In this document: one piece after another, positions 2,640-40,266 of the stretch
Layout of the letters: each line of letters opens with the position of its first letter
Position numbering within the stretch: the first letter of the stretch is position 1
NCBI GenBank assembly: GCA_012516125.1
Contig: JAAYXB010000001.1
Location: 1 to 46,187 of the forward strand
Source: Bacillota bacterium
GTDB taxonomy: Bacteria > Bacillota > SHA-98 > UBA4971
DNA length: 46,187 nucleotides
Reading direction: 5' to 3'
The notes under the pieces: model-generated
Database searches by the model: none
What the model was told of the DNA's origin: nothing
What the model saw: only the letters and a program-made list of their open reading frames with translations
Program-made: the position numbers and the translations under genes

Positions 2640-4313
2640 TTGAACGGCGCATCCCTTGGACGCTCCTTTGACGTGAGGTACGTAATCACGGCCGCAATCG
2701 GCCTTTTCTTCGCGGTTGTGATCGTCTTCCCGTTGTCCCTCGTGATTGCGAAGAGTTTCAGCTCCGATTCGGGCCTCAGTCTGGCGAACTACGGGCGAGT
2801 TTTCAGCGATGCTGCAAATCTGAAGGCGCTGTGGAACTCCGTTTGGGTGTCCGTGCTCAGCACGGCCATATGTGTTGCAGCGGGGTCACTCCTGGCGATG
2901 CTGGTCATCAGGACCGACATCCCGGCAAAGTCGTTCCTCCGGTTGCTCCTACTGCTGCCCTACGGGATACCACCGTTCATAGGTGCAATCGCCTGGTCTC
3001 AACTGTTCGGGCCCGCGGGCTACGTGTCGAAGCTCTATATGAGCATCACAGGCGCGGCCTCGGCACCCTGGAACATATACAGCCCAGGAGGAGTGGTGCT
3101 CGTCCTTTCGATATACCAGTTTCCCGTGGTGTTCATAACGGTCAGCGGCGCCCTGAGACGGATAGACACGTCGCTCGAGGAGGCGGCACGGATGTCGGGA
3201 GCGAGCCCGTTCAAGACCCTTCTCGACGTTACGCTGCCTCTCATCACTCCCGCCATCGTCGCAGGAGGGCTCCTTGCGTTCGTCGGTTGCATATCCAATT
3301 TCGGCATCCCGGCGCTTCTCGGGTTTCGGGCAAGGTTCTTCGTCCTTACCACGAAGATATACTCCGCACTATCCATACCGGACATGCCTATCGCGGCTGC
3401 CATGTCTGTGATACTGGCTTTCGTCTCAGGTCTCGCACTCGTGCTCCAGCGAAGACTTGAGCGAGAGCAGCACAGGTATGCTGTGATCTCGGGTAAGAGT
3501 GTCAGACCGCAGACGATGAGCCTGGGCGCGGCGAGAATACCTTTGCTTGTCATGGTGATTGCCATGGCTCTTTTCGCAGGTGTTGTGCCGATAGCCTCGA
3601 TGGTCCTAACCTCATTCATCAAGTATTGGGGTGCTCCACTGGCGCTCAAGAGCATGACTCTGGATCACTACAAGTACGTCTTACGAATTCCCACAGGAGC
3701 GCGCGCCTTCAGGAACAGTCTCTTCCTTGCTGTCGGCGCGGCGACCATCACCATGACAGCAGGGGCTCTCGTGTCATACATGTGCATCAGAGTCAAGCTC
3801 GCTGTCGCGCGCGTGCTGGACTTCCTTGGGACTATACCATATGCCGTCCCGCACACCATGATCGCGATAGCAATGATACTCGCCTGGTCACGTCCACCTG
3901 TTGTGCTCTACGGCACAATCTGGGTACTACTCGCTGCCTACCTGGTCACCTACATGCCCTTCTCCATACGGACGACCAACGCCACTCTCCAGCAAGTGCA
4001 TGTATCGCTGGAGGAGGCTGCAAGGGTATCCGGTGCAAGATGGAGCGATACCATGCGTGACATAGTCCTGCCGCTTATCAAGCCCGGACTTGCGGCTGGA
4101 TGGGTCCTGGTGTTCATGCCCGCTTTTCGGGAGCTCACCATGTCTGTGCTCCTCTGGTCGCAGGGAGCAGAAACGCTCGGCGTCGTGATCTACAACATGC
4201 AAGACGCCGATTATACCCAGATAGCGGCTGCGCTTTCAACGGTGGTCCTTCTAATCATCTTCGTTGGTAACGCCCTGGTCCGCAGACTCTCGCGGGGTGA
4301 AATCGGATTCTAA
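2640..4313 (+). CDS. ABC transporter permease, two fused permease domains (FbpB/AfuB-like)
   Basis: This 557-residue inner-membrane protein carries two tandem binding-protein-dependent permease domains of about six helices each, as in FbpB. Each half has its own EAA loop that docks the ATPase: EEAARMSGASPFKTLL near residue 180 and EEAARVSGARWSDTM near residue 460. The start is TTG at 2640, chosen for GAGAGGAGG just upstream; the protein opens MNGASLGRSFDVRYV before the first helix. It sits between the binding-protein gene (separated by a hairpin) and the ATPase gene (17 bp gap). A fused double permease means one chain plus an ATPase dimer forms the full transporter. Confidence 0.88.
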   Translation: MNGASLGRSFDVRYVITAAIGLFFAVVIVFPLSLVIAKSFSSDSGLSLANYGRVFSDAANLKALWNSVWVSVLSTAICVAAGSLLAMLVIRTDIPAKSFLRLLLLLPYGIPPFIGAIAWSQLFGPAGYVSKLYMSITGAASAPWNIYSPGGVVLVLSIYQFPVVFITVSGALRRIDTSLEEAARMSGASPFKTLLDVTLPLITPAIVAGGLLAFVGCISNFGIPALLGFRARFFVLTTKIYSALSIPDMPIAAAMSVILAFVSGLALVLQRRLEREQHRYAVISGKSVRPQTMSLGAARIPLLVMVIAMALFAGVVPIASMVLTSFIKYWGAPLALKSMTLDHYKYVLRIPTGARAFRNSLFLAVGAATITMTAGALVSYMCIRVKLAVARVLDFLGTIPYAVPHTMIAIAMILAWSRPPVVLYGTIWVLLAAYLVTYMPFSIRTTNATLQQVHVSLEEAARVSGARWSDTMRDIVLPLIKPGLAAGWVLVFMPAFRELTMSVLLWSQGAETLGVVIYNMQDADYTQIAAALSTVVLLIIFVGNALVRRLSRGEIGF

Positions 4314-4330: not shown

Positions 4331-5392
4331 TTGGCAGATTGGCTCGAAAGGATACGAATAGTGAAACTGACGAAAAAGTTCGGCTCTTTTACCGCCGTAG
4401 ACAGCGTAAGCTTCACAGTGCGGAAGAACGAGTTCTTCTCTCTCCTCGGCCCGTCTGGCTGTGGCAAGACTACGACGCTCCGGTGCATCGCAGGGCTTGA
4501 GCAACCGACTTCGGGTGAGGTCTATATCGGTGGGCGCCTCGTCTCGTCGCCTGAAAAGGGCGTCATGGTGGCCCCCGAGCGCCGCGGGATAGGGATGGTT
4601 TTCCAGAACTATGCGGTGTGGCCGCACATGACTGTAGAGCAGAACATAGCTTATCCGCTCAAGATAGCACGGGTGTCGAAAGTGAAGATCCGGTCAACGT
4701 TATCGAGCATCGTCGATCTCCTGAAGCTCTCTGGCCTGGAAAAGAGATACCCCGCAGAGCTGTCTGGGGGCCAACAGCAAAGAGTGGCACTCGGGCGGGC
4801 GCTCGCCATGGATCCGGAGGTCATGCTGCTGGACGAGCCACTTTCAAACCTTGATGCCAAGCTGCGTGAGCAAATGAGGTTTGAGCTCAAGGATCTTCAG
4901 CGGAAGACCGGCATAGCCATCCTCTACGTCACGCACGACCAGGTGGAAGCTATGGCTATGTCCGACAGAGTAGCAGTGATGAACGGCGGCGTGGTCATCC
5001 AGGAGGGAACGCCGTATGAGATATACAAGTCCCCTGCCACCAAGTTCGTCGCTGACTTCATAGGCACGATGAATTTCCTGCCGTGCGAGGTCGTGGAGTG
5101 GCGAGACGGCTGCGCGATCTTGCGCCTTCGCAACGGTTCGGTAGTAAGGATCAACAGTCCCGAGGTAGAGCGCGGCAGCTACACCCTTGCGGTGAGGCCG
5201 GAGGACCTGCTCTTAAATCGGGAGGAGGGTGTGGATTGTCAGGTCGACGTAGCGATCTTCCTTGGAAACGCCGTCGATTACAGAGTCAAACTTGGCGACG
5301 ACATCCTCCGTGTCCAGACCAGCGTCGACAATAGATTCGAACAGGGAGAGAAGGCAAAACTCGCAGTGCAAAGGGGCATTCTCTTCTCGTGA
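4331..5392 (+). CDS. ABC transporter ATP-binding protein (FbpC/PotA-like)
   Basis: This 353-residue cytoplasmic ATPase energises the adjacent importer. Walker A GPSGCGKTT is near residue 43, the signature LSGGQQQR near residue 140, Walker B VMLLDEP follows, and the H-loop histidine is in YVTHDQ. The last ~110 residues form a TOBE-type regulatory domain (LAVRPEDLLLNREEG). The start is TTG at 4331, 17 bp after the permease stop, with GCGGGGGTGGCG as ribosome site. It is a typical CUT-1/Fbp class ATPase and predicts import, not export. The substrate is not shown by the sequence. Confidence 0.9.
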   Translation: MADWLERIRIVKLTKKFGSFTAVDSVSFTVRKNEFFSLLGPSGCGKTTTLRCIAGLEQPTSGEVYIGGRLVSSPEKGVMVAPERRGIGMVFQNYAVWPHMTVEQNIAYPLKIARVSKVKIRSTLSSIVDLLKLSGLEKRYPAELSGGQQQRVALGRALAMDPEVMLLDEPLSNLDAKLREQMRFELKDLQRKTGIAILYVTHDQVEAMAMSDRVAVMNGGVVIQEGTPYEIYKSPATKFVADFIGTMNFLPCEVVEWRDGCAILRLRNGSVVRINSPEVERGSYTLAVRPEDLLLNREEGVDCQVDVAIFLGNAVDYRVKLGDDILRVQTSVDNRFEQGEKAKLAVQRGILFS

Positions 5393-5419
5393 CTTCTCCG
5401 GTGAAGGGGGCAACGCACC

Positions 5420-6988
5420 GTGCGGACTACGGAACAGCTGGCAAGAGCTCTGAGAAAACGTTACGAAGCGGGTGCTGTAGACTATTGGATGAGCCCGCTG
5501 GTGCGAGGGCAAGGAGGCGCTCCCGCCGGACGGATACGCGACGGAGACTGCGTAGTGTTCTGCTGTAGACGGGGAGACCGAGAGGCCCAGCTCACGGACG
5601 CTTTCACAGATCCGTTTTTCGACAAGTTCGAGGTGGAACGGATGCCGAACCTTGCCTTCATACCGTTCGTTCAATACCACGAGCGCTTCTCGCATCTCCC
5701 CACTGTTTTCCCCCTCGTGCGGCCCGAAATGACCCTCGGGGAGGTCATAAGCCGGGCTGGCCTCTCACAGCTCCGGGTGGCAGAGTCTGAGAAGTCCGCT
5801 CACGTAAGCTTCTTCTTCAATGGGCGAAGGGCTGAGCCATTCCCTGGCGAAGAGCGGGTGGTAGTGCCGAGCCCCAGTTCTTCACGGCTCGCCGATACCC
5901 CGGGAACAAGCACCTGGGAAGTGGCGCAGGCAGTCGGTGATGGGATGCGAGACGGCAGCTTCGGCTTCATCCTCGCAAACCTTGCTGCAGGCGACATGAT
6001 TGGACATCTCGATGATTGGGACGCTAACGTCAAGTGCGCGGAAGCGGTGGACAGAGCACTCGGCGCCATATGTGACGTTGCAGCAGAAACGGGGTACACG
6101 GTGGTCGTGACCGCAGACCATGGCCTCTTGGAACAGTTTCGAAATGAAGATGGCAGCCCCAGCCTGGGACATACTGCTGCTCGTGTGCCTTTCGCCATTG
6201 TGCCACCTCGCGGTGGGGAGTTTCGGGCGACCCCGGTTACGCGCGACGGGTCTCTTGCAGATGTTGCTCCGACCGTCCTCGGGCTGCTTGGACTGAAAGT
6301 CCCAGGTGAGATGGCGGGAAGGCCGCTTTTCGTGAGCGGGGGACCTTCCGGCAAGTGCGTGCTGGTAGTGTTGGACGGATGGGGCATCGGGAAGGAAGAT
6401 CCGTCCGCGAACCCGATCGCCGCCGCAAGGACGCCCACCATGGACAAGATAAGGGAACAATGCCCCTATACCACACTCTTGGCGGCTGGACTGGCCGTCG
6501 GGCTTCCGGAGGGACGACCTGGAAACTCTGAGACAGGACACCTCACCATCGGAGCCGGCCGGACGATTCTTCAGGACGAACTTAGGATAGGAAGAGCCGT
6601 CGCCCGTGGGGAGCTTTCGGAGAATCCTGCGCTCATGTGGGGATTCAAGAAGGCGTCCGCACATGGGGGCAAAGTGCATATCATCATGATGTTATCCGAA
6701 AAGAGCTCGCATGGGAACATCAAGGAAGGAGTTGCAGTCCTGGAGGCTGCGCGTGCACACGGGATTACGCCGGTTCAGCTTCACCTGGTCCTGGATGGCA
6801 GGAGCAGCCCGCCCCAGGGAGCGGCGGACTTGCTGCAGGTGCTCGAAAGGGAAGCCTCTGACAGAGCAGACTGGGATGTGGCGACCGCCATCGGCAGGGG
6901 GCTGGTCCTCGACAGGAGCGGAAGCTACGCAGAGAAGACCCGCGTGGCTTACATGGCTCTCACGCACGGTTGGGGCGAAATCTTCTGA
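5420..6988 (+). CDS. Circularly permuted 2,3-bisphosphoglycerate-independent phosphoglycerate mutase
   Basis: The enzyme class interconverts 3- and 2-phosphoglycerate using two metal ions and a phosphoserine intermediate. Here the halves are swapped. Residues 10-300 match the second part of the usual enzyme: VVFCCRRGDREAQL, LRVAESEKSAHVSFFFNG, DMIGH, TADHG and HTA. A short linker (FVSGGPSGK) then leads to the usual N-terminus: LVVLDGWGIG, PGNSETGHLTIGAG, LDGRSSPP. All metal ligands have counterparts: D192, H196, H251 and D319, S370 (nucleophile), D233, H234. Substrate residues R51, R54, K125, H431, R461, R493 and R499 also align. One usual acidic residue after LDGR is Ser. The 522-residue length equals the normal enzyme. 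The start is GTG at 5420 after AAGGGGG. It is the last gene of the phosphoglycerate-type operon. Confidence 0.88.
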   Translation: MRTTEQLARALRKRYEAGAVDYWMSPLVRGQGGAPAGRIRDGDCVVFCCRRGDREAQLTDAFTDPFFDKFEVERMPNLAFIPFVQYHERFSHLPTVFPLVRPEMTLGEVISRAGLSQLRVAESEKSAHVSFFFNGRRAEPFPGEERVVVPSPSSSRLADTPGTSTWEVAQAVGDGMRDGSFGFILANLAAGDMIGHLDDWDANVKCAEAVDRALGAICDVAAETGYTVVVTADHGLLEQFRNEDGSPSLGHTAARVPFAIVPPRGGEFRATPVTRDGSLADVAPTVLGLLGLKVPGEMAGRPLFVSGGPSGKCVLVVLDGWGIGKEDPSANPIAAARTPTMDKIREQCPYTTLLAAGLAVGLPEGRPGNSETGHLTIGAGRTILQDELRIGRAVARGELSENPALMWGFKKASAHGGKVHIIMMLSEKSSHGNIKEGVAVLEAARAHGITPVQLHLVLDGRSSPPQGAADLLQVLEREASDRADWDVATAIGRGLVLDRSGSYAEKTRVAYMALTHGWGEIF

Positions 6989-7000
6989 CAGCGCAGGGGG

Positions 7001-7060
7001 ATGAGCCTCGTGCCGACAAGCAGGGAAATGGGTTTGAAGGCGTTCCTCGGAAACGGATGA
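7001..7060 (+). pseudogene. Remnant of class II aldolase-like N-terminus
   Basis: Thirteen bases after the mutase stop, a start codon opens a 19-residue frame beginning MSLVPTSREMGLKAFLG and ending at a TGA. The opening resembles class II fructose-bisphosphate aldolases (MPLVTSKEM-LKA), but the expected continuation does not appear in any frame. I read it as a gene start left after a deletion. The match is short, so this is tentative. Confidence 0.3.
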
Positions 7061-7378
7061 GGTTCTGGCACCGCCTCGCAACGCCCGCACGGGTCAGAAG
7101 ACGGCGCCCATCGGCCCGGGATGTCCCGCCGCAGCCCCGTGAAGAGGCTGGCGCAGAGGAAATCAGCAGCCACCTTACTGCACCTCAACTTCGTGCATGA
7201 CCGCAAGATCCCGCACGGAGTCAGCGCATTTGGCGCCTCCTCACGAACTGCAAGTGCTCTTGTGACGCCGCATCTTAACGGCTACGCGACAAGACTCGAG
7301 AACACATGACCCCAGCATGCTTTCTGCGAGGCGCGGCAAAGAGCGGTGAACGAGCTGGTAAGGATGTTGTTCGGCCGG

Positions 7379-7452
7379 AAACGGACAATTCGCGTCCGTT
7401 TGACCTCGTTGTCGGGGTCTAGCGCTGTAAGCGCCGCCACCCACGCGGCGCT
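7379..7452. terminator. Pair of perfect hairpins, 28 bp apart
   Basis: The first stem is AAACGGAC (7379-7386) with GTCCGTTT (7394-7401) around a 7-base loop. The second is AGCGCCGC (7430-7437) with GCGGCGCT (7445-7452), also with a 7-base loop. The first ends in TTT and starts in AAA, so it could end transcription in both directions. No gene lies close enough to assign it firmly. Confidence 0.4.
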
Positions 7453-7982
7453 ACGAATGCGTACCGTCGTCCGCTGCACACGGCCCATTCCTATCATCCT
7501 CAAGCGCTCCAGGCATCTACCCTACCTCGAACACCGTCAACACGCCCAGGATCCAAGGGTCAAAGAAGTAATTGTGCGACTTTTGCCCTGTTACCTGCTG
7601 CCAGTACAAACTCGCACTTAGCCGCCCAATCCCACATGCTGGCGCCCTACATCAAAAGCTCAGTTAAACCCTTGAAGGCTCGACGGCAACGCAAGTCATC
7701 CGCTATACTGTTGATGACCAAGCTGATAGCTGAACGAGCACCATGCTGGCTCGTCATGCGCTCGTCAACCGCGACTCACTTTCTCCTGCACGGTTCGAGT
7801 TCGAGCTTGGTCGTCTGTGGACGGTATGATGTCTGAGAGTCTCTTTCTGGGCCAAATGGTGTAGAAGCTGTGGTAGCGAGTGTCCTATGAAGCAGCTGCC
7901 CGGTGAGGGAGATTCCTGAGGTGGTACGTGTGGCAATCGGCTGTCCTCCCTTGCAGGTAGCAAGCTGGCAGGCCCCGTGGCG

Positions 7983-8006
7983 CAGGCACAGGCACAGGCA
8001 CAGGCA
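7983..8006. repeat. Four tandem copies of CAGGCA
   Basis: Four exact 6-bp units are followed by a partial fifth. Being a multiple of three, it would keep frame if translated, but no gene is recognised across it. Confidence 0.8.
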
Positions 8007-8150
8007 GGACCCCGGTGCGGGAGCACAAGTAGGCGAGCTCGACTTCATGACAACTACGACATGTGGCAGGGTTATTCTGGCAGGCTCTCCGAGCAGATCG
8101 CATCCCGGAGAGTTCGCCTGCGCTCAGATGCACTGAAGACCGAACCCGCG

Positions 8151-8182
8151 CCAGGGCTCACTTGACCCGTGAGAGCCCCTGG
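8151..8182 (+). promoter_or_regulatory. Leader hairpin abutting ribosome site of the cyclic-di-GMP gene
   Basis: CCAGGGCTCAC (8151-8161) can pair with the arm at 8169-8182 (GTGAG-AGC-CCCTGG) across the loop TTGACCC. The 3' arm ends in the first two bases of the ribosome site GGGAGG (8181-8186), so folding could limit ribosome access. I see no c-di-GMP riboswitch consensus, so any ligand control is unproven. Confidence 0.4.
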
Positions 8183-8193
8183 GAGGCAAGACT

Positions 8194-10341
8194 ATGAGAC
8201 TGCGAAACAGAACGCTGAGCATAATTGGCCTCACTCTCGCTGGCCTGATCGTGATCCTCTATGGGACTTCGCGGGTTATCCTGCTGGACGGTTTCGCGAG
8301 GTTGGAGGACCACGACGTCCGCCGCAATGTCGGGCGGGCTCTGAGCGCCCTGGGCGATCGCCTCGCTTCTCTGGACGCCGTGGTGGAAGACTGGGCCACT
8401 TGGGACGATACCTATGACTTCATGGAAGACAAAAACACCAAGTACATCGAGTCCAACCTTGGCGATCTCACCTTTTCGAACCTCGGGCTCAACGTCGTGC
8501 TGTACATCGACACCTTCGGTCAAATCGTCTTTGGCAAGGGGTTCGACCTGAATGAGGGCGAGCCCATTCCCATTCCAAGAGGGCTGCAACAGTACATTGT
8601 CCCGAACGGCCGCACTCAATTCCGCAGCAATGCAACAGGCACCGCAACAGGGATTGCAGTCCTCCCGGAAGGCCCGATGCTCCTTGCCGCAAGGCCCATC
8701 CTGACCACTGAAGGGAAGGGCCCGGTTCGCGGAACGCTGATCATGGGACGGTACTTTGATTCTGCTGTGGTTCAGCAGCTGGCAGAAACCACTCATCTGG
8801 CGATCACCGTGCAACAGTTGAACGGACCCGAGGTCCCGCCCGACTTACGGGCAGCGCTCACATCCTTATCTGAGCGGGAGCCCATTTACGTCCGGCCGCT
8901 CGGAACGGAATTCATCGCAGGATATGCGCTCCTCAAGGACATCTCAGGAGAGCCCGGCCTTGTGTTGAAGGTGCAGGTACCCAGGAGCATCCACAAGCAA
9001 GGTCAGACCAGCGTTCTCTATTTCCTCTCATGGCTTGTGGCGGCCGGCCTGGTGTTCAGCGCAGTGATCCTTGTGTTCCTGGAAAAAACGGTGCTGTCTC
9101 GGCTTGCCCTTTTGAGCGCGAGCGTAAGCGCCATCGGTGCTAGCGGCGACCTCTCCACGAGGGTGCCGGTGGCAGAGCGCGATGAACTCTCAGACTTGGC
9201 CAGGGAGATTAACCGAATGCTGGAGGCGCTTGAACGGTACCAGGGCGAGCTACGGGCAAGCGAAGAACGTTACCGCCATCTCAGCATCACCGACTCCCTC
9301 ACCGGGCTCCACAACCGCACCTATTTCGAGCAGGAAATGCACCGTCTCGAGGCCGAGAAGTGTGTGCCGGTTGGCATAGTTCTCTGTGACGTAGACGGGC
9401 TTAAGCTCGTAAACGATACCCTTGGACATGATGCAGGTGACGAGTTACTCCTCGCTGCCGCCCGTGTGTTGAAGGAGACATACCCCGGGGGAGGTGCCGT
9501 CGCCCGGATCGGAGGCGATGAATTCGCTATGTTGCTCCCAGGCAGCGACGAAACCGCCACGGGGCGAGTGTGCTCGAGGCTTCGGGATGGGGTTGACACA
9601 TACAACGCGGCAAACCCGGAGCGGCCCCTGAGCGCTTCGATTGGATTCGCTGCCAGAAGCGACACTTCCAAAAGCATGAGTGACCTCTTCAAAGAAGCGG
9701 ACGACAACATGTACCGGGAGAAGCTGCACCGTAGCCGGAGTACTCGCAGCGTTATCGTCCAAACCCTCATGAAGGCTAAAGAGGCAAGGGACTTCATTAC
9801 CGAAGGCCATCTGGACCGGCTGGAAAGCCTGGTCGCGCGCGTGGCCGCAGCCATCGGCCTGCCCGAACGTAGCATAAGCGACCTGCGTCTTCTCGCGAGG
9901 TTCCATGACATAGGCAAAGTCGGCATACCCGACCGCATTCTGATGAAGCCAGGTGCGCTAACGCCTGAGGAAATCGAAGAGATGAGGCTCCACTGTGAGA
10001 TCGGCCTCCGCATTGCGCAGTCCGTGCCTGACCTAGCCTCGATTTCGGACTGGATCTTGAAGCACCACGAATGGTGGAATGGTCAGGGATATCCGCTCGG
10101 GCTGAAAGGTGAAGAGATCCCGCTCGAATGCCGCATTCTTGCGATTGTGGACGCCTACGATGCAATGACCAGCGACCGGCCTTACCGAAAGGCGCTAACC
10201 CACGAGCAGGCCCTGCGCGAACTCAAGCGCTGTGCAGGAACCCAGTTCGACCCTGACCTGGTGCAGAAGGTGGTGCCGATACTGGAAATCAGCGGACCAC
10301 ACGCTAGCCCTGATGAGAGGCTGGCCCCAAGTACCTCTTGA
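8194..10341 (+). CDS. Membrane CHASE4-HAMP-GGDEF-HD-GYP cyclic-di-GMP signalling protein
   Basis: This 715-residue sensor probably both makes and degrades cyclic di-GMP. An N-terminal helix (residues ~8-27) precedes a CHASE4 extracellular sensor (~35-245, including DWATWDDTYDF), a second helix (~270-292), and HAMP (~295-345). The GGDEF domain (~360-515) has an intact active site ARIGGDEF near residue 439. The HD-GYP domain (~525-700) has FHDIGKVGIPD near 570, then HHEWWNGQGYP. No RxxD inhibitory site is visible just before GGDEF, so product feedback may be absent. The start ATG at 8194 follows GGGAGG at normal spacing. It is a single gene with a leader hairpin. Which activity dominates cannot be told from sequence. 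Confidence 0.93.
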   Translation: MRLRNRTLSIIGLTLAGLIVILYGTSRVILLDGFARLEDHDVRRNVGRALSALGDRLASLDAVVEDWATWDDTYDFMEDKNTKYIESNLGDLTFSNLGLNVVLYIDTFGQIVFGKGFDLNEGEPIPIPRGLQQYIVPNGRTQFRSNATGTATGIAVLPEGPMLLAARPILTTEGKGPVRGTLIMGRYFDSAVVQQLAETTHLAITVQQLNGPEVPPDLRAALTSLSEREPIYVRPLGTEFIAGYALLKDISGEPGLVLKVQVPRSIHKQGQTSVLYFLSWLVAAGLVFSAVILVFLEKTVLSRLALLSASVSAIGASGDLSTRVPVAERDELSDLAREINRMLEALERYQGELRASEERYRHLSITDSLTGLHNRTYFEQEMHRLEAEKCVPVGIVLCDVDGLKLVNDTLGHDAGDELLLAAARVLKETYPGGGAVARIGGDEFAMLLPGSDETATGRVCSRLRDGVDTYNAANPERPLSASIGFAARSDTSKSMSDLFKEADDNMYREKLHRSRSTRSVIVQTLMKAKEARDFITEGHLDRLESLVARVAAAIGLPERSISDLRLLARFHDIGKVGIPDRILMKPGALTPEEIEEMRLHCEIGLRIAQSVPDLASISDWILKHHEWWNGQGYPLGLKGEEIPLECRILAIVDAYDAMTSDRPYRKALTHEQALRELKRCAGTQFDPDLVQKVVPILEISGPHASPDERLAPSTS

Positions 10342-12344: not shown

Positions 12345-12538
12345 TTGCGTTCTGGCGCGGGATCTTGCCTCCTCCGCTCAGTCCGATGATACCCTTCATC
12401 GCCATCGGCAACGCGGTACTGGTCATCGTGTGCGGTTTACTCGAACGACGGGGCAGGCTCGCAGCTATAGCTGGTGTGGTGGCCGCATCAGTACTTAAAT
12501 TCCTGGTGCTCTCGAGCGCCCTGCGGTTCGTGGTCCAG
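12302..12538 (+). pseudogene. Internal fragment of an ECF-type transporter S component
   Basis: One frame reads GGIAIGVVTPVIAFWRG, ILPPPLSPMIPFIAIGN and VLKFLVLSSALRFVV, matching the hydrophobic core of small ECF S-component membrane proteins that capture vitamins or other ligands. There is no start codon or N-terminal part; the frame overlaps the 3' end of mrp. After about 12538 the homology stops and a cysteine desulfidase-like reading begins in a different frame. It is a remnant between two deletion joints and cannot make a functional transporter. Confidence 0.55.
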
Positions 12539-12539
12539 T

Positions 12540-13330
12540 CACGCCATCGGAGGCGAGCCTCGAGAGATCGGGGTTTCCCTCAGCACGAACGTGCTCAAGA
12601 ACGCATGGGCGGTCGGGATACCGGGCACCACCGACACGGGAATCGAGGTCGCCGCGCTTCTGGGCGTCGTCCTGAACCGACCAGAGGCCGGGCTGGAATT
12701 GTTCTCGCTCGTGTCAGAGGGCGCGGTCAGAGAAGCCCGCCGCCTTCGCGAGCGCTGTGCGGTCACGGTGACCACTCGCGACTCGGTGCCCCGAGTGTAC
12801 ATCCATGCCCGGGTCGTGACGGACCAGGGGGTCGCAATCGCCGAGACGCGTGAAAGGCACGCCTCGGTCAGGCTCCTGGAAGTAGACGGATGTCAACTGG
12901 ACCCCGGTTGCCTGCCCGAGGAGTGCGGCGCTATCTCGCCGACATCCATCGGGACCCTGGCAGAGATCCTCTCTGTGATTCTGGACATACCCTCCCATGA
13001 CCTCGACTTCCTGGTGGAGCGTGCCGCGTTGAACCTGGAGATTGCCAGGGCGGGCTTCGCGACGGATGAAGGCATCGGCATGCGCGCCCTGCGGGAGGGC
13101 CTTGTGGCGGAGACGGTGTTTGGCCCCGGCACGGCGAGCAAGCTGGCGCTCCACGCGGCTGCCGCCTGCGATGCACGAATGGCGGGGGTGCAACTGCCGG
13201 TTGCATCTTGCGGCGGCAGCGGGAACCTCGGCATTACGGCGAGCGTGCCGGTGATGCTTGGCGCAGAGGAACTGGGCGTGCCGCGCGAAAAAATGGCGCG
13301 CGCTCTTGCGGCAAGCGGCAGGGCGGTCCC
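12540..13330 (+). pseudogene. Truncated L-cysteine desulfidase family (CyuA/UPF0597) fragment
   Basis: The reading GVSLSTNVLKNAWAVGIPGT, then VQLPVASCGGSGNLGITASV and AEELGVPREKMARAL, matches the middle of the L-cysteine desulfidase (serine dehydratase-like, Fe-S) family. The N-terminal ~35 residues with the usual GCTEP cysteine are missing, and the C-terminal end is replaced. Around 13320-13350 the frame runs without a stop into a transposase N-terminus, so an open frame at 12474-13517 would give a chimeric protein. No ribosome site supports expression. I call it a pseudogene. Confidence 0.7.
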
Positions 13331-13349
13331 TGCCGGAAACGGTCTCGTG

Positions 13350-14136
13350 GGGCCGGACCTCGAGAGGTTTATAGAGCCATTCGCAAAGCATTTCTCCAGG
13401 AGTTGTGGGAGGCCGAGCACGCCAATAGACGTGTACTTGCGCATGATGTATCTCAAGAGGCGCTATGGCCTCGGATACGAAAGGCTGTGCAAGGAAGTAG
13501 CTGACAGCATGACCTAGCGCCGATTCTGCCATATCCGTCTTGAGGACGATGTGCCCGACTTCACCACGTTGGCCAAGCTTACGAAGAAGTTCGGTGACAA
13601 GGCTCTAGAGGAACTGAACGATCTTCTCATCCACAAGGCCGTCGATGAGAGACTCATCCGTTCCCGGAAGGTGAGAGTCGATTCGACGGTGGTGCAAGCA
13701 GATATCCACCACCCTACTGATGCTAGACTTCCATCCGACGGGGTTAGGGTGCTGACCCGCATCGTCAAACAGACAAGAAGCGGTGCCGATGGCCCAGAAG
13801 GTTCAAAGCACTCTTGGCAGGTCGTTAGATGAGTTTGCCGCTGATAGAGGCTTTCACTCCAATGAGGATGAGGCTGGGCTCGAGGCGCTTGGCATAAAAC
13901 ATGTGGCCATTCCCAAGCCAGGAAAGTGTTCAGCCAAGAGACAGGAGATTGAGGGCGCCTCCTGGTTCAAACGTCTCAGACGCTGGCGGTCTGGAGGAGA
14001 AGCCACTATCAGCCTGCTCAAGAGAAAGTATGGTCTCAACCGGTGCCTGTTCAAGGGCTCCAACGGCACAGCAGCTTGGGTGGGGATCTCGGTATTCACC
14101 CATAACGTGGATAAGCTCGTAGCCCTGATGACATGA
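13350..14136 (+). pseudogene. Decayed DDE transposase (IS1182/ISNCY-like)
   Basis: The pieces collect into one broken transposase. The N-terminal part reads GRPSTPIDVYLRMMYLKRRY and ends at a TAG (13515-13517) where relatives have Trp; the same frame resumes RRFCHIRLEDDVPDFTTL and VRVDSTVVQADIHHPTD. From about 13783 another frame gives LDEFAADRGFHSNEDEAG, then FKRLRRWRSGGEATISLLKR, carrying the second Asp and the Glu of the DDE triad. The ~150 residues between these blocks are missing. GGGGCTGTCC just beyond the end (about 14143) resembles an IS end. It is inactive: one nonsense codon, one internal deletion with frameshift, and a fused 5' end. Confidence 0.75.
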
Positions 14137-22509: not shown

Positions 22510-24396
22510 CTACCTCCACGCCAACCCCACAAACGCTGAGTTCCTCGCGAGCCTCGTAGCGCGGGTAGTAATCCCCATTTTCTCCCTCAGTCTTCGCTCC
22601 AACGAGTTCGCCGCATGCTCTCCTGATCGCGAGGACTTGGTCTCAAGGCCGTAGAATGTCATTGCCCCGGTGCGCGCGTTGACCTTCACGATGCCCCCAT
22701 CAAACTCCATCAACCTTTCGCCATCCCGAGTCAACCGGACAGAGGCAGTCAACACGAGGAAGCGAGAAACGCTACGTTCGTATCGACTGCTCTTCTGCAT
22801 CTCGCGGTTCAGCCTGTTTCGCAGTCTGACCAGACCCTCGAGCTCTGCCTGGAGGCTGCGCAAGCCAGGTTCCGAAGGCTTGCTCTTCCGTCGAACGATA
22901 TGTTTGATAAACGCAGTATCCAGGGTTGCACTGGAAGCCCATATTCTGGTCTGGTCGACAGAATCGTTTCCCGGAAACAGGCCAAGCCTCGAAAGTGGCC
23001 ACGCCGACAACTCAAGCCTTACATCTTGGTACAACAACGGGACCGCTTGGGCTAGGAGTGTGGCGTATATGCCATCGACGTCTTGCCTGCACAACAAACC
23101 GTATACGTCATCACTGGATTTCTCCCTGTAATCGAGTCTCTGCATAACCCACGCGATAAAGCGCCCAATCAATGCGATGGTCCCATTGCCGCGGGAGTAC
23201 AGATCGACAGTGAATTCGTCTGGTTCGATTCGTGCCTCGTGAAACCACAGCTGGTACGACAGTATACTGGCGCAGCCATCGTCTCTCATGACCCTCCGTC
23301 TCAATTCGGACTCAAGTCTAGCAAGTGGTCCGTCTATCGATACGAAATGGCTCCTTGTGGTTATGGACACAGCTCGGTTCAAGCAGTCTTCCTGCTCAAG
23401 GCGCAAAAGATCAAAGACCGTACCTATGTCGCTTTCCACCAACCAGCTGCGCAGGAGTTCGCCAGGCTGCTTTGCCTCGGCCAGCCTCTGATGCACAAGA
23501 GACGCAGTTATGGCCACGATCTTCCTACACTCGGGTCGGTGATAAAGATGCCAGTAGACCACGTGTTCGTACGACGATAGTACCTCGATGATCCGCTCTA
23601 GGTCACCAATAGCAAGTCCGTCGCTGTCACTCGCCAATCGCGTGATAACGACCCGAACCGGCGCGTCACAATAACTAGTGTCCAGGTTGAGATATGACAG
23701 CCTGCGGACTAGTTCATATAGGCGATGGATCTTCTCCCATCGAGGCAAGTTGCCGGCAGCGTCGGGAAGAAGCAGCCACCTGTAGAAGTCTTCGAGCACG
23801 TACTTGAGATGTTCAGGCGACTCATCTAGGACGGCCCACTGAGCTGCCTTTAGCAGACCCAGTACGCGGTTGACCCTTGCGTAATCCGCCGACCAGAGGT
23901 AGTCCGTAACGAATTCACCAAGTCTATCAAGCACGCTGTAAGAGGGTCCCGTCATGTCCAAAAGGCGTCGAAGCTCCCCTAGGGGTCTCTCTCGGTTTAC
24001 ATCCCACAGGTACCTTGCGACTCCCTTCTCGACAGCGAATGTGCCAGGAAGATGGCCTATATTCGACAGAAGAGCGGCACACTGGACAGCTGCAATGGCA
24101 GAAGAGAACTCTGCGCGTCCGATCTTGAACTGGGAGTTACCGCCGGGAACCTCGATGCGCGAAGCAACGTACAGCATTGACACTGTGAAGTCCCATCGAC
24201 TGTGGCTGATCCCCGGCAGAGCGCTCTCTAGCACGCCCACATGCCTGAGTTGCTTCAGGCGGCTCACTTCGCCTTTGGCTTGTAGTAGAGCAAAAAGGTC
24301 ATCAGCCGGGGGGTACAGGGGGAACCGAACTAGCCCGATATTGGGAACAGTGTGCTTGAGCGTCAGCATCCCCTCACCGTCCTTCGGCAGACTCAC
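22510..24396 (-). CDS. Unrecognised 628-residue protein with broken HD-like region and C-terminal PD-(D/E)XK-like motif
   Basis: I do not recognise this family. Residues ~60-125 resemble the HD fold of dNTP hydrolases: ISHSRWDFTVSMLYVA, then AALLSNIGHLPGTFAVE where active relatives have HDIGH-PF-H. The metal-binding His-Asp is Ser111-Asn112 and the last His is Phe120, so HD catalysis is unlikely. Near the C-terminus MEFDGGIVKVNARTG and FYGLETKSS give a D566...E585-x-K587 pattern, as in PD-(D/E)XK nucleases. The middle is helical and featureless. It is the last gene of the DISARM-like operon, 93 bp after the helicase gene. The start (GTG 24396 or ATG 24369) is uncertain. It occupies the place where DISARM systems often have the phospholipase-D protein DrmC. 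Confidence 0.75.
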   Translation of the reverse strand: MSLPKDGEGMLTLKHTVPNIGLVRFPLYPPADDLFALLQAKGEVSRLKQLRHVGVLESALPGISHSRWDFTVSMLYVASRIEVPGGNSQFKIGRAEFSSAIAAVQCAALLSNIGHLPGTFAVEKGVARYLWDVNRERPLGELRRLLDMTGPSYSVLDRLGEFVTDYLWSADYARVNRVLGLLKAAQWAVLDESPEHLKYVLEDFYRWLLLPDAAGNLPRWEKIHRLYELVRRLSYLNLDTSYCDAPVRVVITRLASDSDGLAIGDLERIIEVLSSYEHVVYWHLYHRPECRKIVAITASLVHQRLAEAKQPGELLRSWLVESDIGTVFDLLRLEQEDCLNRAVSITTRSHFVSIDGPLARLESELRRRVMRDDGCASILSYQLWFHEARIEPDEFTVDLYSRGNGTIALIGRFIAWVMQRLDYREKSSDDVYGLLCRQDVDGIYATLLAQAVPLLYQDVRLELSAWPLSRLGLFPGNDSVDQTRIWASSATLDTAFIKHIVRRKSKPSEPGLRSLQAELEGLVRLRNRLNREMQKSSRYERSVSRFLVLTASVRLTRDGERLMEFDGGIVKVNARTGAMTFYGLETKSSRSGEHAANSLERRLREKMGITTRATRLARNSAFVGLAWR

Positions 24397-24489
24397 TCCA
24401 CACTACTCGAAATCCCGCACAGAGTCGTCCGGCTTATAGCCGCAGACCACTTGGTCGGGTGCCGTGCCGATTCTTCTTGCACGTCGCCG

Positions 24490-27400
24490 TTACGCGAACC
24501 AGCTCTGATCGCTCCGAATCACGCGGGCAGATTCCTTACCCAGCAGGATTCTGGCAAGCCGGTAGAAGTGCCTCGCCATTGCTTCACGGTCGTCGAGGTC
24601 GGTGGCGGGTATCTCAAGTACTTCATAGCCCCGGGCGCGCAGCTCATCGCGGATCGCCCGGTCCCTCGCCGCTGTCTCAGGGTTGCCGTGAATGTGCTCA
24701 CTCAGGCCATCGAGATAGACGCACACCCCCAACTCGTACTCATCTTCCCCGGGGAAGAAGCAGTCCGGGACTGTGGAGCCAAGCGGCCGCCCAAGCTTGA
24801 TCTCGTATTGCCACTTGGGCTCGGGGAAACCTGCGCGCTCCAACAGACGGCGGAGGCGGGTCTCAGCCTCGTTGACGGGCATCGTTCTCCCCTTTGGCGT
24901 CTCAGCCGGAAGACGCGCCGGGATCTCGTGGAGGAAGGTTAGCGAACTCCCCAAAGTCCTCAACCGCTCATAGGCGACGTGGCGGTTGAGATGTCCGTGG
25001 TAGAACGCGTTTCGGAACGTTTGGAGGCAGTCTATGCACGACCGCCCACAGCCCGACGGGCATTTCTCCACCACCTCTGTGGCCGCCTGCGCCACCTCGG
25101 GCCAGCGCTCGCACGCCTGCTCGAGGAGGCCTGAGCCACCGGGCATCGGGTCATACAGTATCGCGTCGACGTCGTCCTGACCAGGGCGCCCCACTACGAG
25201 CACCTCGAGGTCATCCCTTTCCATCTCCAGCACCCGGCTCATCCCCACGCGGAGAGCCTCCAGCACTGAGTAAGCCTCCTCCCGCGTGGCAACAGCAGGC
25301 AGGCACATGGCGTCAGCCACCACATCAGCGAAGAACCCCACGTTTTCCACTTCTTCGCCGTAACGCTCCCTGTGTGCTCGCAGGAATTCCTCGAGCTCAC
25401 GAGCGGACGCCAGGGGAGACCGGCTCTGGCCTGTGACCAGGCTCACGGGATAACCCAGTCTCCCTGATGAGTGTACCAGCGGTGCGGCACCCACGTTCAC
25501 GAGTCTCAGGTGAACCCCGCGCCGTAAGGTCAGGTCACGCCCGCCCCATGAGAAACGCTTTCCCGGCCCATGCCTACCGGTTTCGTGACCGTAGATAACG
25601 ACCGGAAGCTGGAAACGATACTCCTCCTCATCGCTGATATGGGACCTGTGGACGAGCTCAACGTCACACACAGGGACGGCTTTGAGAGCAGCGCTGCCAA
25701 GGGCCGCAACAGCACCAGGCGCCGCTGTGCCAACCTCCGTCACCGACTCGCGCGCTGTGTCTACCTGGAAGAGGATTGGCTGCACAGGCTCAAGATGTAG
25801 GTACCGTGCCACAAACCTGTGGCCGTTCGCGTATATGAGGTTGCCGGGCACATATTCGCGAAGTGCGACCGCGGGCGGGCGCGGAAGGTCGAAGTCCCTT
25901 CCCCCCTCTGCATATCTGGGCACAATCGCCGTGCCTATGATGGAACCCGTCTCGAGCCCGTACCCTGGCAGGAATCCTTCCGAAGCAAGCACGGCGTAGG
26001 TGTTCGTGTCGTCGTATCCCTCGGCCTCGTGGCGCCGGCGTGGCACAATCCCCTTGTACCTCTTCACTAGCCGGTCGCAGCGTTGGTAGAGAGCGTCCTC
26101 TTCGGGATCGAGCGTGCCCTTGAGTCGGCGCATGCTGTCCAGATGAGCCATCTGGCTGCGCGCCCAGTCCAGGCGCTTCTTTAGGGTGCGGATGACCTCC
26201 TCAAGGCAGTCAGCCATGGCAAGGACCCTGCTACGTAGCGCTAGCTCCTCAACCACAGCAGCGTCCTCCTCAGGCCAGCTCCGCCCGAATGCAGCCCTTA
26301 CGTATTCGAGGAGGACCGCTTCGTGCTTCCTTATCACGTCCCGAAGAGGGCCAACATCAAATGGCTCGCTCCGGACGTGCCCGACCTCATCGAAGAGATA
26401 ATCCCGCACTCGCGCCGGGAAAGCCACTTGTAACGCACGTGCGACTTCCGCTCGGTCGTCCTCGCTAAGAGGGCTACTGCTCCGGGCGAGCTGGTGGAGC
26501 TTAGTGAGGACGGCTGCGTGGACGTGTTTTGCCACCATGAGCTCGTTGCGCATGTTGAAGCGTGGCGGCTCAACCCGGCCCTCGAGCAGCTTGAGCGGGT
26601 CTGCGAAGTACGCCCGATCATGATCAACCGCACGCGCGTACGTGATGTTGACTGCAAGCCGATGCCTCCGGCCCGCACGGCCTGCACGCTGCCAGTAATT
26701 CGCCGGAAGAGGCGGGACGTTGCGCATGAGGACGGTATCCAGCGAGCCTATATCGATCCCGAGTTCCAGGGTAGGTGTGCACACCAGCGTGTTGACTGTC
26801 TCACCGTCGCCCTTAAAGAGACGTTCCAGACGCTCCCGCTCGTCCGCGGGCACCTGGGCCGAATGCTCTGCTGGCCGCACCATCGCAAATCCCTGATCGA
26901 TCGCAGCAAGGTCATAGTTGTCAGGATCCGGCGGCTCAAACACGAGCGTTCCGTCGCAGCGCCAGGCAAGGCAGCGCTTGCCCGGAGTCGGACGCACCTG
27001 AGTACGGCGGCACTTCCGGCATCTCCACACTCCATTGTGCGGCGAGATCCTGAGGAGGTCGGCATCGATCTGGCGTACACCAGCGCAGTGTCTCAAGGCA
27101 TTCCCTCTGGCATCGGTCAGAGTCACCGGTACTAAGATCTGCAGCTCCTTGGTCAGCAGGTCCCATAATCCCCTCACGAAGTCCTCTACGTGGTCATTGG
27201 GCACACCCCAGGCCCGCGCCGCTTGTTTGACGATGGTATCCCCGACCGGGCTGAGCCACTGCGCTACGCGCCCGCGGTCGTCATCAGCCTCCCTGAAGAG
27301 CTTTATGCCCCTCGGGACTCCCTGCAGAAGGGGCAAGTACCCCTGTTGGATCTCGCGGTCGCCATCCATCCAGAAACGTGAGAAGATCTGACCGTCACGG

Positions 27401-29895
27401 TCCAGGAGATACATCTGACGGCGGTAGTTATCGAGAAGAGCATTAATGCCTTCCACGAGCTCCGCAGGCTCTATACCCAGCCTGCTCGCCCATTCCCTAA
27501 TGAAAGCGAGCTCAGGTGTAAGGCCATGGTATTCTATCTTGATCCGGCCCCAGGGCTCAAGGCCGACTCTCTGCCTGACACCAGTCGCGACCTCCCTCAA
27601 TACCGCGATACGCAGGAAGTACCTGCGTTCTTGGGCGTGTCGGACTCCCTCGGCTTCCTTCCTGGCCACCTGCCATACCTCTGGAATAAGGCTTCTGGAC
27701 AGCTCATCGTCGTCATTGAGCTTCTCGTCCAGATGGGCTGTAAGGTCGCCTACTGATATGGGACCCTCTGCGATCTTCTCTGCCATTAGACTGCGCAGCC
27801 GGAAACGACGCGCGTGATCTTTCATCCAGCCGGCTTGGAAAGCTGCCTCCTGGCGATTGTCGGCGAAGACCAGCAGGCGGCGCCGATCAGCGTGATGGAT
27901 CATGTTCTGGGCCAGGACGTGCACGTCGGATACGCTCACCGCGCGCACCGGGCGCGCCGGCTCTCTATAGCCTCCCGGCCTGTCGCGGCCTGGCGTCCTG
28001 CAGGCAAGGCAGGACACCAGATAGCCCCGATGCCTTTCGTCCTGTTCTACGGCAAACAATGGCACGAGCTCCCCTTCGCGCCCGCACGCGTCGCAACGGT
28101 CAAGGGCCTCGGGATGAAGCGCCCCGCAGTAGCGACACATGAAGACCTTGTGTGTGCGTGGCACCTCACCGTCCTCTTCGTCTGAGAGCGCGAGACGGTC
28201 CAGGAGCACCACCCGCGTGCCTTCCTGCTCGGGTCCAAGCGCAGGCCAGACTCTGCGGCTATCCACCGCGTCTCCACCTCCCAGCCCGTTCGGGGCTATG
28301 ACGAGGTCCTTCACGTGGTGGACGAAGTAGTGCTGGCCGCAGGTGTTGCAGGTCATGACCGGCAGGCGGAAGAGGCTGTCCTCCCCTTGAGTGGCGAGCT
28401 CGTCTTCGGCGGAAAGCCACAGCCGTGGGCCGGGCTCCCCCTCCGGAAACGTGACCACCGCACCGCCCACGCCGCGAACAAAGGCATGGATTACCGGCCT
28501 CAACAGCGGCCGGCCTTCCTTGCTGGACGCAGCGCCGAGAGCAAGCCAGGCAAGCACCTCCTCTTCAGGCACAGCCCGTCCCACGCGATCCTGGAGTTCT
28601 GTTACAAGATCCGTGAGCGCTCTCGGGCGAGACAGAGCCTCGCTGATCTGGTAGCATAGTTCGTTCTGGGCAAGGAGGGTGTAGAGGTCCTCCTGCCAGT
28701 GCGCCGCGTCGATCCTTGCTCCCGTCATTGCTTGGACCAGTGTACGCACCATGCGACCGGCATCGTCGCCAGCATCTATCGCATCAATGATGTTCTTGAG
28801 CTGGACGGACGGATCCCCGGGCAGCGGGGAGGGCAGATGCCTCACGGCCGCCCATTCATCCGGCTCATACTCTTCCCCCACGAGGGACACGTCCTCGCTC
28901 GAAACGCCGAAGAACCGCGCCGCGAACGCCTTTGCACCCTCGCAACCGTGGACAGGGTCCGCCAAGGTTGCTGATGTGGCAACGTGGGCCACTTCACCGA
29001 CACTCTTGCCGCAAAACGCACGGAGCCGCCGGACGAGGCACGCCGTCTCCGCGCCTGCCGCACCCCCGTACGTGTGTGCTTCATCAAACACCAGAAACTC
29101 AAAACGCGCGCCATCGAACAGCTCCACATCAGCGTGACGGGTCAGAAGCAGCTCTAGTTGCTTAACGTTGGTGAGCAGAATGCGCGGCTGCATCCCGGGC
29201 GTGCGCATTTCCTCGCGGGAGGCGCGCTCCTCGGGCGGGCGCACCGGGACGTTTCGGCGCTCCTCCCTCACCTGAGCAAGCTTTGCGAGGTAAGCTTCCC
29301 GGGAGGAACCAGGAGGAAGGCGCTCCCCCGACACGTCGGCTGCGCGTTCTGGGGTCTTGCCCACATACATCCCGAAGGGGATCCCCGTGCCTGCCAGTAT
29401 CCCGCGCAAGCGCCCCAGCTGATCCTCAGCAAGAGCGTTCATCGGATATACAATGACGGCGACGATCCCGGGGGCGGCCCCTTCGTCTCGAAGTTCAAGA
29501 CACCGGCTGATGATGGGATAGAGGAAACACTCCGTCTTGCCCGACCCGGTGCCAGTGGAGATGAGCGTCGTCTTCCCGGCACGAATGGATCTGATAGCCT
29601 TCTCCTGATGCCCGTAGAGGCGTTTGTACGGGATGAGGTTCGCCATGAACGGATGAAGAAAGCCTTCGGAGACGAGACTTGACACGCTTGCCCCCATGCG
29701 GAAGGAGCGCGATAGGCTGACGTAGGGGCCCTTGAGAAGAGGCGTCTGTCTCGTTCTCTCTAGTGAGAGCAGCTCCCGTAGCTGGCGGTGGAGAAGCGGA
29801 TCGGCAAACGCATAGGTGGTCAACTGGTAGCGAAGGAAATCCCCCACGACCTTCTCGGTGAAGCTGACAGGGTTGATAGCCACCTCATAACTCAC
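24490..29895 (-). CDS. Giant DEAD-box helicase with DUF1998 region and C-terminal Vsr/DUF559-like nuclease domain (DrmA+DrmB-like)
   Basis: This 1801-residue superfamily-2 helicase has Walker A TGTGSGKT (114-121), DEAH (271-274), SAT (308-310), and helicase C motifs TLELGIDIGS and YWQRAGRAGRR near 1070. Zinc-ribbon pairs lie between the helicase parts (MTCNTCG, CRYCG..CDACG, CRKC). The DUF1998-type cysteine cluster CPSGCGRSCIDCLQTF is near 1612-1627. The last ~130 residues read VPDCFFPGEDEYELGV, VYLDGLSEHIHG and RDELRARGYEVLEIPATD, like DUF559/Vsr endonucleases. In DISARM the helicase DrmA and DUF1998 protein DrmB are separate; here one chain holds both plus a nuclease-like tail. The start is GTG at 29895, 17 bp after the methylase stop. 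Confidence 0.88.
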   Translation of the reverse strand: MSYEVAINPVSFTEKVVGDFLRYQLTTYAFADPLLHRQLRELLSLERTRQTPLLKGPYVSLSRSFRMGASVSSLVSEGFLHPFMANLIPYKRLYGHQEKAIRSIRAGKTTLISTGTGSGKTECFLYPIISRCLELRDEGAAPGIVAVIVYPMNALAEDQLGRLRGILAGTGIPFGMYVGKTPERAADVSGERLPPGSSREAYLAKLAQVREERRNVPVRPPEERASREEMRTPGMQPRILLTNVKQLELLLTRHADVELFDGARFEFLVFDEAHTYGGAAGAETACLVRRLRAFCGKSVGEVAHVATSATLADPVHGCEGAKAFAARFFGVSSEDVSLVGEEYEPDEWAAVRHLPSPLPGDPSVQLKNIIDAIDAGDDAGRMVRTLVQAMTGARIDAAHWQEDLYTLLAQNELCYQISEALSRPRALTDLVTELQDRVGRAVPEEEVLAWLALGAASSKEGRPLLRPVIHAFVRGVGGAVVTFPEGEPGPRLWLSAEDELATQGEDSLFRLPVMTCNTCGQHYFVHHVKDLVIAPNGLGGGDAVDSRRVWPALGPEQEGTRVVLLDRLALSDEEDGEVPRTHKVFMCRYCGALHPEALDRCDACGREGELVPLFAVEQDERHRGYLVSCLACRTPGRDRPGGYREPARPVRAVSVSDVHVLAQNMIHHADRRRLLVFADNRQEAAFQAGWMKDHARRFRLRSLMAEKIAEGPISVGDLTAHLDEKLNDDDELSRSLIPEVWQVARKEAEGVRHAQERRYFLRIAVLREVATGVRQRVGLEPWGRIKIEYHGLTPELAFIREWASRLGIEPAELVEGINALLDNYRRQMYLLDRDGQIFSRFWMDGDREIQQGYLPLLQGVPRGIKLFREADDDRGRVAQWLSPVGDTIVKQAARAWGVPNDHVEDFVRGLWDLLTKELQILVPVTLTDARGNALRHCAGVRQIDADLLRISPHNGVWRCRKCRRTQVRPTPGKRCLAWRCDGTLVFEPPDPDNYDLAAIDQGFAMVRPAEHSAQVPADERERLERLFKGDGETVNTLVCTPTLELGIDIGSLDTVLMRNVPPLPANYWQRAGRAGRRHRLAVNITYARAVDHDRAYFADPLKLLEGRVEPPRFNMRNELMVAKHVHAAVLTKLHQLARSSSPLSEDDRAEVARALQVAFPARVRDYLFDEVGHVRSEPFDVGPLRDVIRKHEAVLLEYVRAAFGRSWPEEDAAVVEELALRSRVLAMADCLEEVIRTLKKRLDWARSQMAHLDSMRRLKGTLDPEEDALYQRCDRLVKRYKGIVPRRRHEAEGYDDTNTYAVLASEGFLPGYGLETGSIIGTAIVPRYAEGGRDFDLPRPPAVALREYVPGNLIYANGHRFVARYLHLEPVQPILFQVDTARESVTEVGTAAPGAVAALGSAALKAVPVCDVELVHRSHISDEEEYRFQLPVVIYGHETGRHGPGKRFSWGGRDLTLRRGVHLRLVNVGAAPLVHSSGRLGYPVSLVTGQSRSPLASARELEEFLRAHRERYGEEVENVGFFADVVADAMCLPAVATREEAYSVLEALRVGMSRVLEMERDDLEVLVVGRPGQDDVDAILYDPMPGGSGLLEQACERWPEVAQAATEVVEKCPSGCGRSCIDCLQTFRNAFYHGHLNRHVAYERLRTLGSSLTFLHEIPARLPAETPKGRTMPVNEAETRLRRLLERAGFPEPKWQYEIKLGRPLGSTVPDCFFPGEDEYELGVCVYLDGLSEHIHGNPETAARDRAIRDELRARGYEVLEIPATDLDDREAMARHFYRLARILLGKESARVIRSDQSWFA

Positions 29896-29912
29896 CAGCC
29901 TGTCTCGGTTTT

Positions 29913-35252: not shown

Positions 35253-35257
35253 GGCCA

Positions 35258-38722: not shown

Positions 38723-39193
38723 AGTAGACACCCCTCGGCATGAGCCCGTGTGGCCTGAGACTCCCAGACTTGCCAGTAAGTATTAGACAAATGGCACTAG
38801 CTATCCTGCCCATCCTGCGTCGTTCTGCACGATTCGTCACCGACCATCATCGCATCCGCTCACCGTGGACATCGGACGCGAAACGTCCCCTGCTCGGGAT
38901 CCGTGTCCCTCTAGGCCTTTCGTCCTTCGTGTTCTGTTCACTCTTGCCATTGAGGTGATATGCTGACGTTAGCGGCTCCCCTTTTCTACCTCCAGCTTGT
39001 CACGCTTTGCCTGTTGACGGTTGCTCACCAGGACATACCTTGGTGCTCGCTTCGCCGTCTCCGGCCTCTTTCTACCGACACGTCCGCCTCACCACAACCG
39101 ACCTGGAAGCCGCTACCCCAAATTCCGGGCCCCTTGGCAGACGCTCGTCCACTGAGTCGACCGGCTGTTGGAGAGCGCATTGGCGTCCGCAGC
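38723..39193. other. Leader/intergenic region before the defence operon
   Basis: About 470 bp between the antitoxin stop and the SNF2 start. No gene is seen. The defence-operon promoter should lie here on the - strand; AATACTTACTGGCAAG-like AT-rich sequence occurs around 38775-38790, but I cannot fix -35 and -10 boxes. Confidence 0.4.
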
Positions 39194-40204: not shown

Positions 40205-40266
40205 GGTTTGTCCTCCTTCGTGCATGGTTCCTCGACTGGTCCGTTGACGCGAACTTCCCCATCGCT

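Follow-up and report, generated by a model that had tools for sequence, protein, structure and literature searches.

Judged from its sequence, the gene at 5420-6988 on the forward strand of our window, that is, the whole 46,187-nucleotide stretch of Bacillota DNA analysed here, codes for a naturally occurring circular permutant of cofactor-independent phosphoglycerate mutase (iPGM). The canonical iPGM is a two-domain enzyme, with one domain inserted in the other, and catalysis needs the domains to close together. In the permuted protein, both halves are complete, swapped, joined in one frame and inherited, and the usual iPGM order, in which a contiguous transferase domain interrupts the phosphatase domain, is absent.

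The permuted gene and its product

The protein has 522 aa and starts at a GTG, with a purine-rich AAGGGGG about 9 nt 5' of it; the frame is only 5 codons longer when fully open (527 aa). The iPGM profile TIGR01307 (EC 5.4.2.12) matched the protein in two stretches of swapped order, the best of which pairs aa 8-304 with profile positions 214-504. Both stretches together scored 407.9 bits and so passed the curated iPGM cut-off of 330.65; with NF003897 the protein stayed below the cut-off (317.7 vs 862). PF06415 (iPGM_N) is severed near profile position 131, its C-terminal part being matched first (5414-5680) and its N-terminal part last (6587-6982). Relative to the Geobacillus stearothermophilus enzyme 1EJJ, the permuted protein runs from about residue 214 to 510 and then from 7 to 212. 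When both halves were reordered in silico into the usual iPGM order, a single alignment with 1EJJ was obtained over residues 7-510 (E 1e-90).

A previous sequence-only reading of this DNA had proposed a circular permutation with a short linker between the old termini, a contiguous phosphatase domain and a split transferase domain, all of which is borne out by the swapped profile stretches, the full-length match after reordering and the matches to each domain. It had also placed the break at the end of the phosphotransferase domain, which proved to be wrong. The break lies inside the transferase domain, at about 1EJJ 212-214, and the phosphatase domain is therefore continuous while the transferase domain is split.

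All parts of the gene are on the forward strand. The C-terminal part of the transferase domain, now N-terminal, occupies 5420-5680 (iPGM_N profile 131-216; 1EJJ ~214-310); it carries R51 and R54, equivalent to R261 and R264, as well as C49 and R50, which in this clade stand in place of N259 and F260. The metal-binding phosphatase domain follows in large part at 5729-6331 (Metalloenzyme profile 70-251 at aa 104-293), with D192, H196, D233, H234 and H251 corresponding to D403, H407, D444, H445 and H462. Directly after the residues GRPLF, the new linker VSGGPSGK (aa 305-312, 6332-6355) joins the old C and N termini. The N-terminal part of the phosphatase domain (6356-6586) contains D319, equivalent to D12, and the nucleophile S370, equivalent to S62. 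The gene ends, at 6587-6985, with what was the N-terminal portion of the transferase domain and has become C-terminal (iPGM_N profile 1-131); this portion keeps H431, R461, R493 and R499, and S462 replaces D154 (nt 6803-6805).

The AlphaFold2 model of the permuted protein had a mean pLDDT of 82 and a pTM of 0.75, with pLDDT below 50 in the linker (305-310) and in a loop at 267-273. All 22 significant Foldseek matches in the PDB were iPGM chains, each aligned over about 270-312 columns, with TM up to 0.43 to 1EJJ. Such partial alignments are expected when a sequential aligner, unable to span a permutant end to end, meets one.

Distribution and origin of the permuted order

The sequence-only reading had suggested that homologues with the same order be sought. 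We used a query of 157 residues across the junction, together with two class-level searches, and found the permuted order in 17 genomes of seven families (f1, f38, f56, f63, f144, f145 and f146), all from one Bacillota-type phylum; the carriers with named records are Bacillota MAGs. Matches in other families were continuous (E 1e-41 to 1e-59), while canonical genes gave half-matches of 5e-21 or weaker. A scan of genome contigs retrieved mostly canonical relatives. No junction-spanning match was found in 294 genomes from the phylum to which the Planctomycetota locus L027 belongs, in 398 genomes from that of L028, an alphaproteobacterial locus (Odyssella), or in 72,556 plasmids, all three being samples without a positive control. 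Among congeners of the window's genome, the permuted gene survives in UBA6811 only as a remnant, truncated and frameshifted, and two others have none.

In a tree of 62 rows, the 12 permuted proteins included formed one clade with 100/100 support, apart from all 50 canonical rows, and 100% of the bootstrap trees needed one change of order label. The canonical rows include copies from several genomes that also carry the permuted gene, and an origin of the permuted gene from the canonical copy of the same genomes is rejected by this separation. Between the window's gene and two homologues, dN/dS was 0.18 (L023) and 0.11 (L033). The comparisons identify the permutation as one old event, maintained by purifying selection.

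Two observations concern other loci. The permuted homologue of G092 (L076, 7083-8828) has 581 aa and carries an additional segment of about 60 aa, located between positions 263 and 277 of the query. On a contig of UBA6816 (Patescibacteria; L031), two iPGM genes lie close together, at 6210-7796 and 8001-9542, the first with an in-frame stop within 6882-7796.

Active site and switched positions

Like the iPGM represented by TIGR01307 and 1EJJ, the permuted protein has both domains complete and keeps the metal ligands and the serine nucleophile. The seven metal and nucleophile residues (D12, S62, D403, H407, D444, H445 and H462) are present in every permuted row, as are the five substrate arginines (153, 185, 191, 261 and 264), and H123, E335 and K336 are unchanged. 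In total, 15 of 16 known active-site residues are kept in all permuted rows, across identities of about 45-97%. The exception is Asp154, which belongs to the substrate site of 1EJJ: it is Asp in 50/50 canonical rows and Ser in the 16/16 permuted rows that cover the position. Within the substrate-site set H123, R153, D154, R185, R191, R261, R264 and K336, D154 alone departs from the iPGM pattern. The sequence-only reading, which had found counterparts for all seven metal ligands and most substrate arginines, missed this replacement.

Besides the swapped order, the permuted proteins differ from 1EJJ by D154S and 14 other fixed switches. Of 152 columns conserved among canonical proteins, 74 were kept and 15 had switched to another fixed residue in the permuted clade (24, 121, 122, 124, 128, 154, 189, 195, 231, 259, 260, 347, 401, 417 and 447). 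Of these 15, nine are at most two residues away from an active-site residue (P 0.012); ten belong to the transferase domain (P 0.024). Around H123, GGVHS has become KSSHG, and N259-F260 has become C-R. Some of the switches may be drift, given the long stem branch of the permuted clade; the next-highest canonical clade, on a shorter stem, has five switched columns. At the level of sequence, the di-metal machinery for phosphoryl transfer is intact and the pocket that holds the acceptor is changed. Asp to Ser at 154 loses one negative charge and Phe260 to Arg gains one positive charge, what may have made the pocket more positive and better suited to a more anionic substrate.

Genomic neighbourhood and possible function

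In the window, the permuted gene closes a cluster of five genes on the forward strand. The first (140-1504) encodes a homologue of cyclic 2,3-diphosphoglycerate synthetase (cDPGS), which no Pfam or NCBIfam model matched; it aligns over its whole length with the enzymes of thermophilic archaea (E 6e-131 to 9sxb and 5.5e-130 to 8ork; PMC10690619). In contrast to these, it is bacterial, lies in an importer operon and neighbours the permuted gene. Cyclic 2,3-diphosphoglycerate has been described as a solute exclusive to hyperthermophilic methanogens (PMC10690619). An organophosphate-type ABC importer comes next, composed of a solute-binding protein (1551-2531), a permease with two BPD_transp_1 domains (2640-4313) and an ATPase (4331-5392), the last two assigned from profile matches and conserved order; the stop codon of the ATPase gene ends 27 nt before the GTG of the permuted gene. 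The nearest solved relatives of the binding protein are P5PA, whose importer takes up pyridoxal phosphate, a form of vitamin B6 (PMC8427247), and AfuA, from the hexose phosphate importer AfuABC (PMC4546632).

The same five genes in the same order, with the permuted gene last, were found in eight genomes at 51-97% identity, although draft contig ends interrupt the cluster in two of them (G234 and G280). The cDPGS gene occurs in 8 of 398 genomes of the phylum, and in each of them either the cluster is present or the contig ends inside it. A GntR-type gene was seen by eye upstream at three loci (L032, L073 and L090) and its assignment as GntR/UTRA was verified at L073. The permuted gene of six genomes (f56 and f146) follows rapZ near a phosphoglucomutase-family gene, away from cDPGS and the importer, and in two further genomes there are genes for peptide-type ABC proteins and glycerophosphodiesterases (GDPD) near it. 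Cyclic 2,3-diphosphoglycerate therefore cannot be the common substrate.

A conventional phosphoglycerate mutase (PGM) is present elsewhere in 17/17 carriers: 14 have a canonical iPGM, and the three f1 genomes have an apgM of the archaeal type. The permuted gene is thus never the sole PGM of a genome, and a role as stand-in for a missing PGM is rejected. In the window's genus the apgM is a separate gene (G000:C80:94383-95489). The permuted protein and apgM belong to the same alkaline-phosphatase superfamily, but the former reaches just 36 bits with the apgM profile TIGR00306, whose cut-off is 320.

We regard it as rather probable that the permuted iPGM, of single origin and under selection, has a different phosphoglycerate-type substrate, on which it would act, through its retailored pocket, as phosphotransferase or phosphatase. 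The changed pocket and the operon with cDPGS and importer point to a related new job instead of ordinary glycolysis; the TIGR01307 score argues against a change of function. The protein would fold as an iPGM, and the phosphoryl group of a phosphoglycerate-type ester would pass to S370 at the di-metal site. The reworked pocket may be unsuited to the attack by the glycerate hydroxyl in 2-PG/3-PG isomerisation, and the second half-reaction would have changed. The substrate might be a three-carbon or similar compound, probably more highly phosphorylated and possibly a bisphosphate, although naming it specifically is guesswork based on context and charge. For the window's operon, phosphoglycerate derivatives connected with cyclic 2,3-diphosphoglycerate are the likely substrates; the inducible importer would take up an organophosphate, and the permuted enzyme and the cDPGS homologue could interconvert phosphoglycerate, 2,3-bisphosphoglycerate and the cyclic form. 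The binding-protein importer and the UTRA regulator suggest scavenging as the direction. The cDPGS of M. fervidus favours synthesis (PMC12136491), which fits a scavenging route poorly.

A narrower proposal, which we hold tentatively, is that a bisphosphate is formed or broken down through transfer of the phosphoryl group on the enzyme's serine to a monophosphate, or the reverse; the bisphosphate could be 2,3-bisphosphoglycerate or, where rapZ and phosphoglucomutase are the neighbours, a hexose bisphosphate that serves as activator. The arguments for it are contextual: the exclusive association with cDPGS, which acts on 2,3-DPG, the charge changes D154S and F260R, and the neighbouring PGM/PMM-family mutase in the other genome group, since mutases of this family need a bisphosphate activator. 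The charges of the substrate site could serve another anion.

It is doubtful that the protein is simply an ordinary 2-PG/3-PG mutase in permuted form, serving as a redundant second PGM when phosphoglycerate is imported. The retained metal, nucleophile and arginine residues and the TIGR01307 score agree with such an enzyme, and imported phosphoglycerate would require one, but the substrate-site Asp154 is replaced throughout the clade, the surroundings of H123 and the 259-260 pair are altered, and a PGM is already at hand in every carrier. The view of the sequence-only reading that this is an iPGM in a new order holds for the order; the identity is weakened by the clade-wide Ser154, the 15 switched positions, the cDPGS/importer cluster and the constant presence of another PGM, and the proteins are better named a permuted iPGM-like subfamily of putative activity.

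A decaying pseudogene is very improbable: the remnant in UBA6811 (L026) and the two congeners devoid of the gene would fit one, but the window's frame is intact, the catalytic residues persist over the whole range of identities and dN/dS is 0.11-0.18. An assembly artefact, or fused fragments of a tandem iPGM, has a negligible chance of being correct, even though the window comes from a draft genome of 98 contigs, because the junction region recurs in all 17 genomes of the seven families and the proteins form one clade under purifying selection. Misassembly, which the sequence-only reading had named as a possible refutation, is thus excluded by the same order in 16 other genomes; as for its other candidate, a canonical tandem copy, no second iPGM match adjoins the gene, what also rejects a leftover of tandem duplication, and the window's genome has no canonical copy.

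Other features of the window were also noted. The reverse strand at 22513-38731 holds a large defence-like island with a DrmD-like SNF2 helicase, a 1782 aa protein resembling Eco57I/DrmMI/type IIG methylases and a 1801 aa helicase with an MZB domain, closest to the Druantia DruE models; the island is possibly a DISARM-Druantia mix. A MqsA/SocA Panacea-domain antitoxin-like gene (39197-40225, reverse strand) adjoins it. At 12474-14136, a serine-dehydratase-alpha-like gene appears by eye to pass at its C-terminus into sequence resembling a transposase, and a DDE transposase remnant comes after it at 13783-14136, apparently a disruption by an insertion element.

Meaning for the iPGM family

In the open-licence literature we found no published permuted iPGM, and a paper on PGM evolution (PMC2964296) does not mention permutation. 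It is possible, although we would not call it likely, that what we describe is a permuted iPGM subfamily with a reaction that makes or breaks a bisphosphate, together with an undescribed bacterial operon for organophosphate import that includes cDPGS. A stable natural permutant in which the other domain is interrupted offers a direct test of whether folding and domain motion depend on the insertion. The coupled replacement of Asp154 across the clade would be a natural experiment on the passage from a mutase to another phosphotransferase, and the operon suggests a route for cyclic or bis-phosphoglycerate in bacteria.
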